Below, piece by piece: positions 12,449 through 20,741 of a DNA stretch of 64,000 bases (the stretch's first letter is position 1; every line of letters begins with the position of its first letter). The DNA comes from Longimicrobiales bacterium (GTDB lineage Bacteria > Gemmatimonadota > Gemmatimonadetes > Longimicrobiales > Gaopeijiaceae). The notes under the pieces are model-generated. The model was not told the origin of the DNA. It ran no database searches and saw only the letters and a program-made list of their open reading frames with translations. The translations under genes were made by a program, and so were the position numbers. The stretch is taken from the NCBI GenBank assembly GCA_028279425.1, contig JANQNV010000097.1, forward strand, positions 1 through 64,000, read 5' to 3'.

Positions 12449-13327
12449 GTGTCGCCCGCGGGCTTCCGACCCGACCCTCGGCTCTTTCCCTTCGACTCCA
12501 GGTGGTTCGACCACGAGGTCGGCCGGGTCCACTACATCGACGAAGGGAGCGGACCCGCGATCCTCTTCCTCCACGGCAACCCCACGTGGAGCTTTCTGTA
12601 TCGCGGGATCGTCATCCGACTGCGCAAGAAATACCGCTGCATCGCCGTCGACTACCCCGGCTTCGGACTGTCGGCCCGGCCCCCGTCGTACGGGTACCGG
12701 CCGGCGGATCATGCCCAGGTCGTGGCCGATCTCGTTCGTCACCTCGATCTGCGGGAGTTGACGATCATGGGGCAGGATTGGGGCGGCCCGATCGGGATGC
12801 GCGTCGCCGTCGACGAGCGTCAAAGGCTCCGGGCCCTCGTCATGGGCAACACCTGGTTCTGGCCTGCCCGGGGCCGAGCCATGAACGCCTTCGGCTACCT
12901 GCTCGGAAGTGCCCCGGCCCAGTCCCTACTGCGAAGCCACAACCTGTTCGTCGAGCGTTTGATGCCCCTCGGCGTCCTGCACCCACTCGCTCCGGAGGTC
13001 CTGGCGCAGTATCGCGACGCGCAGGCGAGCGAACGGGGCCGGGAAGGTGTGGCCGAACTACCCCGCCAGGTCACCGCCGCGGCGAGTTGGCTCGCGGAAC
13101 TGGAGGCAGACGTCGAGGGCACCCTGCGCGATGTGCCCCTGCTCCTCACCTGGGGCACGCGCGACCCGCTCTTTCCGCCCTCGCACATGGACCGATTCCG
13201 CCTGGCCTTCGATGAGGTGTCGATCACCCGCCTCGAGGCGAAACACTACATCCAGGAAGACGCCCCGGGCGAAATCGCCCAGGCGATCGACGAGTTCCTC
13301 AGCGTGTCGGGTTCCCCTTCGACGTAG
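12449..13327 (+). CDS. haloalkane dehalogenase-like alpha/beta hydrolase
   Basis: A 292-aa alpha/beta hydrolase. The oxyanion/halide region is HGNPTWSF (42-49), and the nucleophile elbow GQDWGG places Asp110 next to Trp111, the halide-stabilising pattern of haloalkane dehalogenases. The catalytic acid is likely the Asp of GTRDPLFPP and the base His is in AKHYIQ. Asn44 and Trp111 would bind halide. Fluoroacetate dehalogenases and epoxide hydrolases share this fold, so substrate class is a prediction. It starts with GTG 2 bp after the cupin. Its 3' end overlaps the convergent hemY gene by 29 bp. Confidence 0.85.
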   Translation: MSPAGFRPDPRLFPFDSRWFDHEVGRVHYIDEGSGPAILFLHGNPTWSFLYRGIVIRLRKKYRCIAVDYPGFGLSARPPSYGYRPADHAQVVADLVRHLDLRELTIMGQDWGGPIGMRVAVDERQRLRALVMGNTWFWPARGRAMNAFGYLLGSAPAQSLLRSHNLFVERLMPLGVLHPLAPEVLAQYRDAQASERGREGVAELPRQVTAAASWLAELEADVEGTLRDVPLLLTWGTRDPLFPPSHMDRFRLAFDEVSITRLEAKHYIQEDAPGEIAQAIDEFLSVSGSPST

Positions 13328-14723
13328 AGATCGTATCCACCCGGCGCTCGGAGAGAATCGCCTCGGCGACCTCCCGACCGCGGCTCCAGCACGAAGGGAC
13401 CGATGGTCCGCTCCCGGCGTAGCTCCCGGCCAGGTGGATCCCCGGGTTCGCTGCCTCCATGCGCTCGAGCGTGTTGAGACGGTCGACGTGACCGAACTCC
13501 ATCCGCGGAATCGCATGCGTCCAACGCGCGACGTAGCGGAGCCCGGGCGCGCTCGACGCTCCAAGAATCTGTTCGTGCTGTCCGTGCACCAGGTCGACGA
13601 GTTCGGAGTCCGACAAGCCAGCGAGTTCCGGGAACCGGGCCCCACCGACGAAGGACGTGGTCTGCACGAGATCTCCGACGGCCCGGCTGTCGAAGAGCGA
13701 ACTCATCCACAAAATGCCGAGAACCGGACGACGCTCTCGCGAGGGAATCAGCATCCCGAATCCATCGAGGGGGTGTGCGACCTCGGATCGACGATAGGTG
13801 AGGTGGACCGTCGTAACGGGGCTGTACGGGATGTCGCGCAACACGCGCGCCCCCCCCGTCGAGATGCCCTCCACCAGGTCGGCGGCCACCGGGGCAGGGA
13901 CCGCGAGGACCACGGCTGACGTCGCGATGGTGCGGCCCTCCGAGCCGATGACCCATCCGCCGTCGGTGCCGGGTTGGATCATCGTCGCGGGGCTGCCGGT
14001 GTGCACCCGATCTTCGCCGATGGCCTCGGATAGCGCTCGAGGCCAGGCGGCCAGACCGCCCGTGAAGCTGAACAGCTTCGACCGGACGCGCGGCCGGGCG
14101 GACTTCTTCTTGCCGGACCGTCGGCCGGCCCTCACGCGCGAGACCGCCCATCGGGTGAGGCTACCGTGTTGCCGCTCCGCCTCGAGCAGCTTGGGAAACG
14201 CGGCTCGCATCGAAAGGGTGGTCGGATCTCCCGCGTGTACTCCGCTGACAAAGGGATCGAGCATACGGTCGGCCACCTCGTCGCCGAGGCGTCGACGCAC
14301 GAAATCGTCGGCGCTTTCGTCTCCTCCCGGACCCGGGGGCGCGAACGGCTCACCGAAGAGTTTCAGCTTGCCCCGCCACGAGAGAGCCTTCGTCGTGAGC
14401 AGACTGAGCGGACCGCCCGGAAGCTCCACGGCCCGCCCATCCACGACGATGAACCGCTTCTTACCGCCCGACCCGGCCACCTCGATCGCACCGTCGAGCC
14501 CGATGCTCGAGAGGTGCTCGAAGAGCTCCGGGTCGCGACTATGGATCGTCTGCGGACCCAGATCGACCGTGTGGCCGTCGATGGATTCGCTGCGCAGCGC
14601 CCCCCCGACCCGGTCTCCCGCCTCGAGCACCTCGACATCGACCCCCTGCTCTCGCAGTCGGTGGGCACAGGCCAGGCCGGCGATTCCGGCCCCGATGACG
14701 ACGACTTCACGGCGGTGTGACAT
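13299..14723 (-). CDS. hemY: protoporphyrinogen oxidase, FAD-dependent (HemY type)
   Basis: A 474-aa flavoprotein with an N-terminal FAD-binding dinucleotide fold (VVVIGAGIAGLACAHRL, residues 8-24), the second flavin motif VLEAGDRVGGALRS and a C-terminal FAD motif around GIHLAGSYAGSG. It oxidises protoporphyrinogen IX to protoporphyrin IX using O2 in characterised HemY enzymes. Loss of flavin-site residues is not apparent; a Lys/Arg-rich insertion (SGKKKSARPRVRSK) sits in the middle. It is the last gene of bchJ-bchE-hemN-hemY, 6 bp after hemN. Other amine-oxidase-fold enzymes are possible, but length and the hemN neighbour favour this assignment. Confidence 0.88.
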   Translation of the reverse strand: MSHRREVVVIGAGIAGLACAHRLREQGVDVEVLEAGDRVGGALRSESIDGHTVDLGPQTIHSRDPELFEHLSSIGLDGAIEVAGSGGKKRFIVVDGRAVELPGGPLSLLTTKALSWRGKLKLFGEPFAPPGPGGDESADDFVRRRLGDEVADRMLDPFVSGVHAGDPTTLSMRAAFPKLLEAERQHGSLTRWAVSRVRAGRRSGKKKSARPRVRSKLFSFTGGLAAWPRALSEAIGEDRVHTGSPATMIQPGTDGGWVIGSEGRTIATSAVVLAVPAPVAADLVEGISTGGARVLRDIPYSPVTTVHLTYRRSEVAHPLDGFGMLIPSRERRPVLGILWMSSLFDSRAVGDLVQTTSFVGGARFPELAGLSDSELVDLVHGQHEQILGASSAPGLRYVARWTHAIPRMEFGHVDRLNTLERMEAANPGIHLAGSYAGSGPSVPSCWSRGREVAEAILSERRVDTISTSKGNPTR

Positions 14724-14729
14724 AGGGCT

Positions 14730-16169
14730 CTACACGGTGCTGGAGAAGGTCGGACGATCGGCCGAATCGACGAGGTAGGCGTCGAAGACCGATGCGATGT
14801 TGCGGAGGAAGAATCGGCCCGTCGAGGTGACGTCCCACCCGGTGGCGGTGCGCTCGAGGAAGCCTTCTTCGACGTATGGAGCGAGTCCCGGCAGGTCGCG
14901 GGCAAACAACTCGGCCATGGGCGCACCGAAGGGTTCGCTCGTGAGATCGTCGGGCAGCTCGAGGTTGCACATCAAGTGCTGGATCACGTACGACCTCACC
15001 TGGTCGTCGAGACTCAGCCGATGTCCGCGCACGATCGGGAAGTGCCCCGCCTCGAGGGACTCCTCCCAATTCTTGATGCGCGGATCGTTCTGGACGAAGC
15101 GACCCGCCAGGCAACCGATCCCGCTCATGCCGAAAGCCACCTGGTCGGGCGCGGCATGGGTCGTGTAGCCCATGAAGTTGCGCAGCAGGCGACGCTCCCG
15201 CGCGGCCACCGACAGCTCATCGTCGGGAGTCGCGAAGTGGTCGAACCCGATCCACTGATATCCCGCCTCCTCGAACACCTCGACAGTGTCCAGAAACAAG
15301 CCGAGCTTGGCTCGGTTGTCCGGCAAGCCGGTCGCGTCGACCGCCCGCTGGATCCGACGGACCTGAGGGAGGTGTGCGTAGCTGAAGGTCGCGATCCGAT
15401 CGGGCGCGAGCTCCACCACCCGGTGCAGGGTGCGGGCGAAGCTCTCCGAGGTCTGGTACGGGAGTCCGTAGACCAGATCGAAGTTCACGCTTTCGAAGCC
15501 CGCCGTCCGCGACCACTCCAGTAGGGACACGGTGTCGGATTCGGGCTGAATCCGGCCGATCGCGACCTGTACGCGATGGTCGAAGTCCTGCACCCCCATG
15601 CTGATGCGGTTGAAGCCCAGGCGCTTCAACAGCGGCGGCTGAGACGCCGTCGCCACCCGTGGATCCATCTCGATGCTGACTTCGGCGTCGGCCTCGATGT
15701 GGAACGCCGACTCGAGCATCCCGAACAGGCGCGCCGTCTGCGCATCGGTGAGAAAATTCGGTGTGCCCCCACCCCAGTGGATCTGACTCACCGAGCGACC
15801 CACACCGATACGGTCCACCACCCCCTCGATCTCCCACGACAGCCGCTCGATGTATCGATCGACCACCTCGGCGCGGTGTCCCGCGATCGCATTACAGCCG
15901 CAGTAGTAACAGCGCTTGCCGCAGAACGGGAGGTGCACGTAGACCGACAACGGCTGATCGGGAGCATCCCCCGCGTCGTCGAGGGCGTCCACGTATTCGG
16001 CCTCGCCGAACTCGGCATCCCAGTACGGCACCGTGGGGTAGCTCGTGTATCTCGGAAGCGCCTTGGCGTGGCGCTCGATCAGCCCGAACAACTCCTCACG
16101 CTCGGGGCTTTCGTGCGGGGGCGGCGGTTCGAAGCCCAGCCCCCCCCGCCCTACCGAGGGAAGGATCAT
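14730..16169 (-). CDS. hemN: oxygen-independent coproporphyrinogen III oxidase
   Basis: A 479-aa radical SAM enzyme that decarboxylates two propionates of coproporphyrinogen III to give protoporphyrinogen IX without O2. True HemN features are visible: RYTSYP at 40-45, and the HemN-type cluster motif C83-xxx-C87-xx-C90-x-C92 ([10 protein letters not shown]), followed by [10 protein letters not shown] and SMGVQDF. Many HemW heme chaperones lack the fourth Cys and the RYTSYP segment, so HemN is favoured. It overlaps bchE by 4 bp and is followed by hemY, so the operon covers consecutive steps up to protoporphyrin IX. Confidence 0.93.
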
Positions 16170-18103
16170 GTGTCGTCGTCCATCGTGGTCAGGAGGGCCG
16201 ACTGCCTCTTCGCGCGCGCACGCTGCCTCGCGAAGCCGCGCGGATCGAGGAACTCGTCGATGCGGTCTTCACCCAGGAGCTCGACGGGATCGTACTCGTC
16301 GACGGCATCGGCCACCCGGTTGGGTACTGCGGGTCTGCGCGAGGGGCCGTCCATCTGCACCGTCACGCGGTTCGCATCGACGTGGCGCGCGCCGTTGCCG
16401 TTCGAGTGCCCGTTGGAATGGCCATTGCTGCCGGCCCTGTCGGCGACGCCCGTGCCGTTCACCAGCGGAAGAGAGCGCCCGACCGGCTCGCCGTTCTTCC
16501 CGGTCGCGGGGCCACCGCCGCAGACGGTGACACCCGCCTGGGAGACGGGACGACTCCGCTCGGAAGCCGGCTTCTTGTTGTACATGCTGCCGACCTTGGG
16601 CCGCCTCTTCTCGGCGTCCTTCAGTTCCTCCTGCGTGAGCACCTTCGACTCGTCGAACTTGAAGTCGACGTTCTTCTGGCCGATGAAGCCGACTCGGCCG
16701 AGGTCGTAGAAGCGCCGTTCGAAGCTCGACTTCAGGAACGCCTTGAGGCATCCCAACATGTACTTCCGCTTGTAGCGGTCGCGGATCCACGGATAACTCA
16801 GGAAGCTGCGCCGCATGTAGAAGCGCCGGTAGTTCTTCATCACCCCGGCGAGCACCTCGCCCCGGGTCATGGTCTCGGGCTTCATGATGGGCGTGACGAA
16901 GTTGTAGCGCGCGTAGTCGCGCACCTCGACCTTGTCACCGAGGTCTTCGAACAGGTCGGAGAAGGGCCAGGGCGTGTACATGTTCCAGTTCACCATGTCG
17001 GCGCCCCAGTCCATCGCCCACTTGTAGGTGTCCTCGATCGTCTCCGGCGTCTCGTTTTCCATACCGATGATGAACTGCGCCTCGGCGACGATGCCGTGTT
17101 TCTTCAGCAGCTGGATCGCCTTCTTGTTCTGCGCGATCGTGGTTTCCTTGCGGAAGCGCTCGAGGTTGAGCTGGGCCGAGGCCTCGGTGCCGAGCGAGAT
17201 GTGAATCAGGCCGGCCTTCCGGTAGAGCGGAAGCAGGTCCTCGTCGCGAAGAATGTCGGTCACGCGGGTGTTGATCCCCCAGTGGACCCCGAGGTCCCGG
17301 TCGATGAGCTCCTCGCACAAGGCGACGAACTTCTCGCGATTGATGGTGGGCTCCTCGTCGGCGAGGATGAAGAAGCCGACGCCGTGGTCCTTCACCAGCG
17401 TTTCGATCTCGTCGACGAACTCGCGCGGGTCGCGCGTCCGGTACGTGCGCCAGAACTTCCACTGTGAGCAGAACGAGCAGGTGAAGGGACACCCGCGCGC
17501 ATAATTCGGGATCGCCACACGCTGGCCCGTGGGGATGTAGATGTACTTGTCCCACTCCAGGATGCTCCAATCGGGAGCGAGGTCGTTCAGATCCTGGATC
17601 GGCGGGTTCGCGGGCGTCGCCACCACCTCGTCGCCGTCGCGGAATGCGATGCCGCGGATCGAGCGGCGGTCACGATGATACCGGCCTTCCTCGACCGCGC
17701 GTACGACGTTGACCAGGATCTCTTCGCCCTCGCCGCGTACGATCAGGTCGATCCACGGCGACTCCGTGAGCACCTGTCCGTACATGAAGGTCGCGTGGGT
17801 CCCGCCGAGGATCGTGACGGCCTCGGGGTGCACCTTCCGGGCGAGTTCGAGCGTCTCCTGTGCCTTGTAGATGCTCGGCGTGATGCAGGTGCACCCGATG
17901 ATGTCCGGGGCGGACCCTTCGCGCAGCGCGGCCTCGAGCGCCTCGTTGGAGAGGTCGTTCGTCATCGCGTCGATGAAAGAGACGTCGTGATACCCGGCCT
18001 TCTTCAGCGCGCCGGTGAGATAGGCGACCCAGGCGGGGGGCCAATTCCCTGCGATCTCGGCGCCGCCGGAGTGGTAGTTCGGGTGGATCAGGACGATGCG
18101 CAT
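16166..18103 (-). CDS. bchE: anaerobic Mg-protoporphyrin IX monomethyl ester cyclase
   Basis: A 645-aa B12-dependent radical SAM enzyme. It forms the isocyclic E ring of (bacterio)chlorophyll using water-derived oxygen, converting Mg-protoporphyrin IX monomethyl ester to protochlorophyllide. The N-terminus ([19 protein letters not shown], residues 7-25) is the diagnostic BchE opening and starts the cobalamin-binding domain. The radical SAM motif is C205-xxx-C209-xx-C212 (CPFTCSFC), followed by [14 protein letters not shown] and [10 protein letters not shown]. Similarity to purple-bacterial BchE, judged from memory, is high throughout the first ~500 residues. Start 18103 follows GGAGGACAC and overlaps bchJ by 16 bp; a longer in-frame extension would cover all of bchJ and is rejected. 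Unusual: residues about 515-645 are a low-complexity tail (Asn/Gly/His/Ser repeat 558-571) beyond the usual end. Confidence 0.95.
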
Positions 18104-18807
18104 GTGTCCTCCGTTGGGACGTCTTTCGTGGCGTGAGAGGGCAAAGGGGCGAGCACGATCCGGAAGCGGCACCGTTCGGCGCCGGTTGCGGTGCAGGCCT
18201 CTTCGGTAACGCGGGCCTTCGACGAAACGAGGGCGCGGACGAGCGTCTCGACCGCGCGCGCGTAGTAATCCCCCATGGGTCGTCCGGCCTGCGCCGTGAC
18301 GCACACCAAGGAGGGAGCGAGGGTGAACTCGGCGCCGTCCGGAGTCATCCGGGCCGTGAAGTCCGAACTGCCGGCGAAGGTCCAGGCGTGCCGGCGGATG
18401 GCGCTCAACAGGACTCGGAGCGAGAGGCGCGCCGGGAGCAGGCGCAGCCCGAGCCGCACGAATCCGGGGATTCGGTGGCGTAGGACGTAGCGGCCGGTGC
18501 CCACCCCACTCGCGGCGAGAATGCCCTCGGCATCCTCCGTTTCGAGCTCTTCGAAGAGCACCTTCACGAGTCGGGCGAAGAAGTGCTCCTCGACCATATC
18601 GCGGGGGAGCGGGTCGGGCAGCCCTGCGCGCGCGGACAGGTGGATGGCCCAGCCCGGACCCATCCGCTCCCGGAGCGCGGCGACCGTTTGAATCAGCGTG
18701 TTCGGTCCGACTCGGCTCGTAAGCGCACCACGATCGGCGACACCCGGAGACGACGAACGGGCGTCCCGCTCGTTGGAACGAAACGTCGATTTCACAGCAA
18801 CCTGCAT
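18088..18807 (-). CDS. bchJ: BchJ-like V4R-domain protein (bacteriochlorophyll biosynthesis)
   Basis: A 239-aa protein with a V4R (4-vinyl reductase) domain in its C-terminal half: [29 protein letters not shown], then a Cys-containing end [17 protein letters not shown]. The N-terminal part ([15 protein letters not shown], about residues 38-52) matches the opening of BchJ proteins. BchJ was named for 8-vinyl reduction, but the real reductases are BciA/BciB, and BchJ is thought to be an accessory or substrate-handling protein. It is the first gene of the operon, overlapping bchE by 16 bp, which supports a role with BchE. Alternative: a generic V4R hydrocarbon-binding protein, unlikely in this context. 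Confidence 0.85.
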
Positions 18808-18845
18808 ACTTCACCCCATGAAGGGGACGGGAGGGTCCGTGAGTG

Positions 18846-18879
18846 TAAATACTACTTGACGTCAAGCATTGTCAACACC
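18846..18879 (-). promoter_or_regulatory. bchJ-bchE-hemN-hemY promoter with symmetric operator-like palindrome
   Basis: Read on the minus strand, TTGACA (18877-18872) and TATTTA (18853-18848) are separated by 18 bp, a good sigma70-type promoter. The spacer holds the perfect palindrome CTTGACGTCAAG (18857-18868). TGT (18846-18848) and ACA (18877-18879) are placed symmetrically about its centre, so each arm reads TGT-N12-ACG. The PpsR/CrtJ consensus is TGT-N12-ACA, so each arm differs at one base. The symmetry is read directly; regulation by a PpsR-like or other dimeric repressor is inferred. Confidence 0.6.
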
Positions 18880-18970
18880 TCGATACGGCCGGTGAAACGA
18901 ACACGATCCGCCCCCCGCGGGTACCGAAGTGCTCAAGCCCGATCCACCTCACCTCCAGCACTCTTCTGCC

Positions 18971-19567
18971 ATGCTCAAATCCAGGTCTTTCGGAAGCCTT
19001 CTCGCCGTCGGGCTCCTCGCCCTTCCGGCCGGTCTCCACGCTCAGAATGCCGACGCCTGCTTCTTGCGCGGGGCTACCGTCGAGCAGGCCGCGGAGCGCC
19101 CGAGTCCGCTCGGCGTCGTGGCCATCCCGATGGGTGACGCCGAGGCGACGCTCTGCTACGGCCGTCCCTCCGCCAAGGGCCGCGAGATGGTCGGCGGCCT
19201 CGACCCGTTCGGTAACCCCTGGCGCCTCGGCGCCAATGAGGCGACCGCCATCCACCTGCCGTTCGCGGCCACCATCGGCGGCGTCGCCGTCGAGCCCGGG
19301 TCGTATTCGATCTACACGATCCCCAGCGAGAACGAGTGGGAGTTCGTGGTCAACGGGTCGGCCGAGCGGTGGGGCGTGCCGATCAACGAGGGCGTCCGGG
19401 CCGAGGACATCGGCAGCTTCACGCGTTCGGTCGCCGCGCTCGACGAGTTCGTCGAGACCTTCACCATCAGTTGGGAGGCCCACGGTGAAGGCATGGGTCA
19501 CCTCGTGATGGACTTCGAGAACCGGCGCGTCGAGGTACCGATCCACATGGCGGGCATGAACCACTGA
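18971..19567 (+). CDS. secreted DUF2911 domain protein
   Basis: A 198-aa exported protein with a signal peptide (hydrophobic residues ~8-20, cleavage near LHAQNAD). The rest is one DUF2911 domain, with the typical motifs [45 protein letters not shown] and VNGSAERWG. The function of the family is unknown; it is common in Bacteroidota and Gemmatimonadota. The start at 18971 puts the signal peptide at the N-terminus; an upstream in-frame ATG at 18929 would only add a polar extension. It is transcribed divergently from bchJ. Confidence 0.85.
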
Positions 19568-19634: not shown

Positions 19635-20741
19635 ATGAAGTGGTCATGGCGAATCGGTCGGCTGGCGGGGATCGATGTGTTCATGCACATGACCTTCCCC
19701 CTGCTCCTCGCCTGGGCTGGGCTGCAGTACTACCGCATTCGCGCCGATCCGGCGGACGTCATCGTAGGTCTGGCCTTCGTGGGCATGCTGTTCGCGATCG
19801 TGGTGCTCCACGAGTTGGGACATGCCCTGATGGCCCGTCGCTTCGGAATCGGGACGAGCGACATCACCCTGTTGCCCATCGGGGGCGTCGCGAGGCTGAT
19901 GCGCATGCCGGCCGATCCCCGCCAGGAGCTCCTGGTCGCCCTGGCCGGCCCTGCCGTCAACGTGGGCCTGGCCGTCCTCCTGGGTTTCGTGCTGTTCGTC
20001 TTCACCGACGGCGGAGTGAGCGGAGGCATCGACATCCTGTTCGGCAATCCGCTGGTCAACCTCTTCTGGGTCAACGTCGGTCTGGCCGTCTTCAACATGG
20101 TGCCGGCCTTTCCGATGGACGGCGGGCGTGTTCTGCGGGCGGTACTGGCCATGCGGCTCGACTTCGCCCGGGCGACTCGAATCGCCGCGACGGTCGGTCA
20201 ACTCCTGGCCGTCGTCTTCGGGATCTTCGGGGTGATGGGCAACCCGATCCTCGTACTGATCGCAATCTTCGTCTGGATGGGGGCCCAGGCCGAGGTACGA
20301 GCGAGTCGTGGCACGCGACAGGTGCCCGACGTCCCGGTCCGAATGGCGATGATCTCCGACTTCCGGAGGCTCGGCCCCCACGACTCGTTGGGCGCTGCGG
20401 CCCACTACGCGCTCAGCGGCGTTCAGGGCGACTTCCCTGTGGCCGCGAACGGCCAGTTGGTCGGCCTCCTCTCGGCGACCCAGCTGGCCGCCGGACTGCG
20501 CGGTGTCGGCCCCAGCGGAACGGTCGAGCAGGTGATGGAGCGTCCGGTCGCGACGGCCGACTCGGACGAACCGATCGAAACGGCGTGGGCGCGGCTACAG
20601 GCGAGCGGTCAGCCCTGCCTCCCCGTCCTGACCGCGGGCATCCTCGTCGGACTGATCACCCGCGAGCAGCTCCAACGGGTGTTCCAGTTGCAGAGTGCGG
20701 TGGGAGAACACGCCCGGGCCGGCGCACAACGGCCGATCTGA
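19635..20741 (+). CDS. site-2 protease family (M50) membrane metalloprotease with CBS domains
   Basis: A 368-aa membrane protein. The zinc motif HELGH (59-63) lies in a transmembrane helix, and the third ligand is in NMVPAFPMDGGRVLRA near residue 155. About six hydrophobic segments make up residues 1-220. The C-terminal ~120 residues form a CBS pair (MISDFRRLGPHDSLGAAAHYAL; VMERPVATADSDEPIETAW). This SpoIVFB-like class cleaves membrane proteins within the bilayer, and the CBS pair suggests control by an adenine nucleotide. AGGAGA lies 8 bases before the ATG. Confidence 0.93.
   Translation: MKWSWRIGRLAGIDVFMHMTFPLLLAWAGLQYYRIRADPADVIVGLAFVGMLFAIVVLHELGHALMARRFGIGTSDITLLPIGGVARLMRMPADPRQELLVALAGPAVNVGLAVLLGFVLFVFTDGGVSGGIDILFGNPLVNLFWVNVGLAVFNMVPAFPMDGGRVLRAVLAMRLDFARATRIAATVGQLLAVVFGIFGVMGNPILVLIAIFVWMGAQAEVRASRGTRQVPDVPVRMAMISDFRRLGPHDSLGAAAHYALSGVQGDFPVAANGQLVGLLSATQLAAGLRGVGPSGTVEQVMERPVATADSDEPIETAWARLQASGQPCLPVLTAGILVGLITREQLQRVFQLQSAVGEHARAGAQRPI

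Follow-up and report, generated by a model that had tools for sequence, protein, structure and literature searches.

Why should a bacterium of the phylum Gemmatimonadota carry a compact operon for tetrapyrrole synthesis, including the anaerobic cyclase of the bacteriochlorophyll pathway, with no photosynthesis gene beside it? The question is raised by 64,000 nucleotides of DNA from a Longimicrobiales bacterium (contig JANQNV010000097.1; hereafter the window), in which bchJ, bchE, hemN and hemY follow one another on the minus strand at 13299-18807. The window covers positions 1 to 64,000 of a 79,571-bp contig (C206) of a metagenome-assembled genome (MAG). An earlier inspection of the letters, here called the sequence-only reading, had left two options, a phototrophic organism whose gene set is split or a relic. 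We put forward, with a probability of about 0.8, that the operon is an oxygen-independent bacteriochlorophyll module of phototrophic Gemmatimonadota, placed apart from the photosynthesis cluster, doubling HemF and AcsF, controlled by PpsR and on at low oxygen.

The operon is real and intact. Its first gene, bchJ (18088-18807), encodes a V4R-domain protein annotated as bacteriochlorophyll 4-vinyl reductase (TIGR02019, 159.8 bits against a cut-off of 74.3). It is followed by bchE (16166-18103), for the oxygen-independent Mg-protoporphyrin IX monomethyl ester cyclase (TIGR02026, 795.5 bits against 481.35), by hemN (14730-16169), for the oxygen-independent coproporphyrinogen III oxidase (TIGR00538, 500.6 bits against 324.95), and by hemY (13299-14723), for a hemY-type FAD protoporphyrinogen oxidase (TIGR00562, 271.5 bits against 97.85). 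The coordinates, the strand and the tight junctions described earlier were all recovered, with overlaps of 16 bp between bchJ and bchE and of 4 bp between bchE and hemN, and a 6-bp gap between hemN and hemY. In a profile search all four proteins lie above curated NCBIfam cut-offs, and the names first given to them stand. BchJ matches Pfam V4R at 30.9 bits, slightly below the cut-off of 31, and may not be an actual vinyl reductase. HemN has a CxxxCxxC motif at residue 83, and HemY the FAD motif GxGxxG at residue 11.

The TIGR02026 match of BchE covers profile positions 1-496 of 497, the domains are PF02310 (B12-binding) and PF04055 (radical SAM), and the radical SAM motif is intact, as had been read, with CPFTCSFC as its CxxxCxxC at residue 205. 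In a quick tree with long outgroup branches, 81 BchE rows (the window and 80 others) stand apart from six other B12-radical SAM rows, with a Shimodaira-Hasegawa-like approximate likelihood-ratio support (SH-aLRT) of 98. This is the tree check that the sequence-only reading had proposed; the window protein falls among BchE, which speaks against a misnamed gene. Among solved structures three distant matches were obtained, labeled B12/radical SAM-type enzymes or oxidoreductase. The C-terminal tail of the protein (window 16166-16600), some 145 residues after about residue 500, is of low complexity and lies beyond the BchE profile; total length among relatives runs from 626 to 669 aa.

No photosynthesis gene was found beside the operon on the whole 79,571-bp contig with 37 query proteins at E 1e-5 (eight window proteins and 29 from the photosynthesis contigs of the MAG, some named by eye). 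The comparison returned only the eight window proteins and one 70-residue CrtI match inside hemY, and the earlier description of a separate tetrapyrrole locus holds for the entire contig. The puf, bch and crt genes of the MAG (5.44 Mb, 339 contigs, 89.8% complete, 5.8% contaminated) reside on contigs C165, C235, C38 and C61. On C165 we found acsF, bchM, bchL, bchH, bchB, bchN, bchF, bchG, bchP, a hemA and ppsR (C165:15239-16606; TIGR02040, 415.4 bits against 275.4), while pufL, pufM, bchY, bchZ and a partial bchX are located on C38. A second pufLM lies on C235, together with a partial bchZ-like gene, a CrtI-family desaturase, a phytoene-synthase-like protein under its cut-offs, and genes for the RuBisCO large subunit and phosphoribulokinase. 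Finally, hemL, hemE and hemF lie on C61 next to a truncated bchD scoring under its cut-off; puh genes were named by eye only and are not counted as found. The genome search suggested earlier thus recovered pufLM, the chlorin reductase genes, bchH and acsF, and supports phototrophy with the gene set divided over the genome, as far as the binning is trusted.

From these assignments we infer the following activities. HemN would make protoporphyrinogen IX without oxygen, HemY would then oxidize it to protoporphyrin IX, and BchE would close the E ring, again without oxygen, while BchJ, as a probable accessory protein, would assist the pathway. The oxygen-requiring HemF and AcsF, which are encoded with the main cluster, would have their doubles in HemN and BchE. 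The cluster-encoded PpsR, acting through palindromes upstream of bchJ, may switch the operon on as oxygen falls.

The distribution of these genes was followed in 146 genomes (the organism's own and those of relatives), with HemF and HemQ examined in 58. Matches over the cut-off were found for BchE in seven of the 146 genomes, for HemN in 12 and for BchNBYZ-type proteins in 10; Photo_RC (pufLM) is present in 10 and AcsF in nine. All seven BchE genomes encode HemN at most 1.5 kb from bchE on the same contig and strand, against 5/139 of the others (Fisher p 3e-9, not corrected for relatedness), and six of the seven have pufLM, the exception being a member of the same genus, G001. A second congener, G005, has BchE, HemN, pufLM, AcsF and HemF. 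HemF occurs in 5/58 genomes, in one of them in fragments and without pufLM. Either HemF or HemN is found in four of five pufLM genomes versus 5/53 others (Fisher p 0.0014, relatedness likewise not corrected). As for location, the contig that carries HemF also bears pufLM in G013 and G021, a chlorin-reductase match in G005, and the truncated bchD in the organism's own genome.

HemQ is a marker of the coproporphyrin heme route; it was found in 40/58 genomes, including the organism's own (above the Pfam cut-off, slightly below the NCBIfam one), and not in G001 or G005. A second tetrapyrrole cluster lies on contig C123 (L161:2350-11026) and comprises hemA (the second in the genome), hemH and a second HemY-type oxidase, with HemQ 4 kb further on. 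It probably represents a parallel heme route of the coproporphyrin type. Heme would then be made by the coproporphyrin route, with HemN, HemF and the HemY of the window feeding protoporphyrin IX to bacteriochlorophyll. Because hemN is adjacent and a second HemY-type gene lies beside hemH and hemA on C123, the predicted substrate of the window HemY is protoporphyrinogen, not coproporphyrinogen as for CgoX.

Upstream of the operon, at 18844-18887 and 36 bp before the bchJ start codon, lies a putative double PpsR/CrtJ operator (no strand assigned), in which a pair of degenerate TGT-N12-ACA palindromes is spaced by 8 bp. The pair scores 18 of 24 letters and is the best double palindrome in the 64-kb window; one of 60 Markov resamples, scored at 8-bp spacing only, reached 18. 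A matching promoter site is present in the nearest loci, L080, L081, L082 and L084 (18-20), and in L088-L090 (19-20), although the half-sites had been extended to TGTCAA/TTGACA from the published TGT-N12-ACA after viewing the relatives' upstream sequences, so that these scores are partly circular. Similar sites occur on C165 beside ppsR/bchG (19) and bchF (17). Across bchE loci in general, 34/78 score at least 17 of 24 (two of 80 were dropped for having less than 150 bp upstream, and distances are approximate, to projected starts). Below 17 are the four scored Chloroflexota, three heliobacteria, three cyanobacteria, all seven Chromatiaceae, L102, all three Gemmatimonas-type loci, the Myxococcota L083 and L085, and many other Pseudomonadota. 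Published sites have the same architecture: in Rhodobacter capsulatus, paired TGT-N12-ACA palindromes precede bchC, with a spacing of 8 bp judging by their stated positions, and a CrtJ peak in chromatin immunoprecipitation (ChIP) is found at bchE (PMC5362033), while Rubrivivax crtI has an 8-bp-spaced palindrome pair (PMC4452267). The cluster of Gemmatimonas phototrophica was reported to contain one PpsR site, and hemN of that species is up at lowered oxygen (PMC11406998). We suggest that PpsR controls the operon via the predicted double palindrome before bchJ.

Several observations weigh against the proposed reading. The operator is degenerate and agrees with the published minimal consensus at 10/12 letters. 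Neither L102 (12) nor the three Gemmatimonas-type loci (12-15) showed a good double site, and none was seen on the puf contigs C38 and C235 (best 14/24). Rubrivivax PpsR binds 8-bp pairs equally when oxidized and reduced, its redox dependence being confined to 9-bp pairs (PMC4452267), which weakens the step of an oxygen response. Likewise, the CrtJ ChIP peaks at bchE are alike with and without oxygen (PMC5362033), and expression of the photosynthesis cluster of G. phototrophica is unchanged by oxygen (PMC11406998). Regarding the genes themselves, 4/10 pufLM genomes lack a BchE over the cut-off. HemY is usually oxygen-dependent, in which case the operon would not be wholly anaerobic.

The MAG also contains two distinct pufLM sets (C235: L047 and L048; C38: L049), whose PufL proteins share 81% and PufM proteins 72% identity; a bchZ-like gene follows each set. 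Either one of the contigs is a stray, or the organism has two sets of reaction-centre genes. Beside the puf operon of C235, the RuBisCO large subunit and phosphoribulokinase (L047:13145-18755) score above their cut-offs and enclose lookalikes, recognized by eye, of the small subunit, CbbX, CbbY and FBPase; photoautotrophy is possible. A RuBisCO-like protein on the hemLEF contig C61 (L160:15604-16752) is about 30% identical to the large subunit of C235 over 315 residues.

The photosynthesis contigs are tied to the window by binning alone, and the operon could come from a non-phototroph into whose bin they had strayed. The 5.8% contamination of the MAG is in keeping with this, as are the two pufLM sets, which suggest that at least one of their contigs may be foreign. 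Yet the combination of BchE, HemN, pufLM, AcsF and HemF recurs in G005, and pufLM accompanies BchE in six of seven genomes among the 146, leaving contamination a quite improbable explanation. Far more remote is the idea that BchE is some other B12-radical SAM enzyme of unrelated function. Further families of the superfamily do match the protein, but the next best, HpnR, reaches 140 bits, far below its cut-off of 650, against a BchE score of 795 bits over a cut-off of 481, a tree position with 80 other BchE, and bchJ and hemN as neighbors; we regard this possibility as negligible.

The assembly of the congener G001 (20 contigs, 95% complete; locus L080) keeps the operon (G001:C2:1-20000, L167), yet pufLM, acsF and a chlorin reductase of the BchNBYZ type were not found in its 20 contigs, nor were HemF and HemQ. 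Nine further window genes surround the operon of G001 in conserved order, seven to one side of it and two to the opposite side. These shared flanks indicate that the site is chromosomal and common within the genus; with L080, L081, L082 and L084 as the nearest loci, the gene order shared with G001 also bears out the earlier assignment to Gemmatimonadota. Among the neighbors retained are the two genes that border the operon, a convergent alpha/beta hydrolase on the plus strand (12449-13327; haloalkane-dehalogenase-like, under NCBIfam cut-offs), which overlaps the 3' end of hemY by 29 bp, and a divergent plus-strand gene upstream (18971-19567), both outside the operon. The shared set does not include the window gene at 19635-20741.

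An operon kept in the same chromosomal place by a genome in which none of these photosynthesis genes was found, nor HemF or HemQ, might be a relic of lost phototrophy, or serve heme synthesis only. Against this, the window's own MAG has photosynthesis genes, and bchE is under purifying selection: relative to G001, the ratio of nonsynonymous to synonymous substitution rates (dN/dS, Nei-Gojobori) is 0.13 for bchE, 0.16 for hemN, 0.17 for hemY and 0.33 for bchJ, with 0.12 for the neighboring acnA and 0.21 for the flanking hydrolase. Values against L081 (bchE 0.19, hemN 0.21) and L084 (bchE 0.24, hemN 0.32) complete a pattern unlike decay; the operon is under purifying selection. Moreover, about 5 kb separate the G001 operon from the end of its contig, and a cluster could be on an unbinned contig. 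Of the two options left by the sequence-only reading, the split gene set is thus favored, and a relic or heme-only operon appears improbable. A different history also merits mention: an ancestral coproporphyrin (HemQ) route, to which operon and cluster added a second route to protoporphyrin IX for bacteriochlorophyll, after which G001 lost the cluster and re-used the operon as its sole source of protoporphyrin IX, BchE and BchJ being held for a non-photosynthetic tetrapyrrole job. We consider this unlikely. In G003, a single-contig genome with no BchE above the cut-off, a search for an unoccupied site covered about 0.83 of 4.10 Mb and was uninformative about the site; just one window protein, not an operon neighbor, matched there with more than 45% identity over half its length. 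With PPDK of C165 as anchor, a 71% match was obtained in G003, no other C165 protein matched within the surrounding 40 kb, and in G001 the matches were no more than weak and partial.

Returning to the oxygen-independent module, the BchE tree provides clues on its ancestry. The window BchE groups with L080, L081, L082, L084 and four Myxococcota sequences (nine rows, SH-aLRT 98), while other Gemmatimonadota BchE occupy two further places, L088-L090 with L102, and L132, L138 and L139. Forcing all Gemmatimonadota BchE into a single clade (12 rows versus 67) lowers the log-likelihood by 148.3 (approximately unbiased test, p 7.7e-77). This constraint, chosen after inspection of the tree and run with the long-branched L146 and L143 and six outgroup rows excluded, rejects one clade and does not alone prove three. 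The five rows of the window's own group are compatible with one clade (p 0.53). HemN of the same loci likewise falls into three groups, in a quick tree with a long-branch warning. Judging from these trees, BchE is on three separate branches within Gemmatimonadota.

Among bchE loci from named genomes, all four genes were found in five of the best 80 of 178, with bchJ first in L080, L081 and L084 and bchE first in L088 and L090. In 10/11 Gemmatimonadota loci hemN adjoins bchE with at most bchJ between them, save for one locus with an additional small gene; the remaining locus, L102, stops 0.9 kb past bchE. No other photosynthesis query matched in the examined flanks of these 11 loci. The Gemmatimonadota L088 (G047) and L090 (G013) share with the window the four genes and an operator-like site before the first one, but have the order bchE-bchJ-hemN-hemY, with bchE first, and belong to a separate BchE branch. 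G013 further differs in a 151-aa gene between bchE and bchJ (L162:5675-6130, G013:C32), whose product resembles, by eye, an Rrf2-type regulator. Outside the phylum, the nearest BchE are those of Myxococcota, where the order bchJ-bchE is seen in 4/4 loci and bchE lies outside the photosynthesis cluster in some members (PMC10576062). In contrast to the window, no hemN or hemY match was obtained in these four loci, two of which have less than 4 kb downstream; L086 has a LhaA-like match immediately downstream.

The order bchE-hemN-bchJ is found in Gemmatimonas-type loci and several purple sulfur bacteria. The latter (Chromatiaceae loci and Thiocapsa bogorovii) resemble the window in the adjacency of bchE, hemN and bchJ, and a table for Thiocapsa gives bchJ, hemN and bchE in a row (PMC10892978). 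However, the order differs, a hemY match was not found in the Chromatiaceae loci, and in most of those seen the genes stand beside bchH, bchL, bchM and puh-like matches of the main cluster. Gemmatimonas phototrophica, of the same phylum, combines the aerobic pair acsF and hemF with the anaerobic pair bchE and hemN, as does the MAG of the window; bchE and hemN were not found in G. groenlandica (PMC7844134). The Gemmatimonas-type loci compared here (L132, L138 and L139, not the locus of G. phototrophica itself) differ from the window in gene order, in their BchE, which shares about 65% identity and belongs to a different branch, and in having no operator-like site. A second phototrophic order of the phylum, SG8-23 (PMC9426454), and soda-lake MAGs with phototrophy and type I RuBisCO (PMC10581226) have been described. 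Thus, bchE beside bchJ or hemN, bchE outside the cluster, and acsF together with bchE in G. phototrophica are already known, and with hemN beside bchE in nearly every Gemmatimonadota locus seen the operon is less surprising than the sequence-only reading held. New details are hemY within the operon, three bchE branches in one phylum, the parallel coproporphyrin-type heme cluster, and a congener keeping the operon though its photosynthesis cluster was not found. Among the literature titles found, none names a bchJ-bchE-hemN-hemY operon in Gemmatimonadota, and a description in print is possible.

The picture of known systems is unchanged by this locus, an arrangement largely of a known kind. Nevertheless, it suggests a modular gene set in this phototrophic Gemmatimonadota group, with the oxygen-dependent steps encoded with the main cluster and the oxygen-independent ones in a separate operon behind a PpsR-like operator. 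Since BchE lies on three branches within the phylum, phototrophy there was probably assembled piecewise. For the organism itself, the prediction is that phototrophy would be of a facultative, low-oxygen kind and not of the purely aerobic one.

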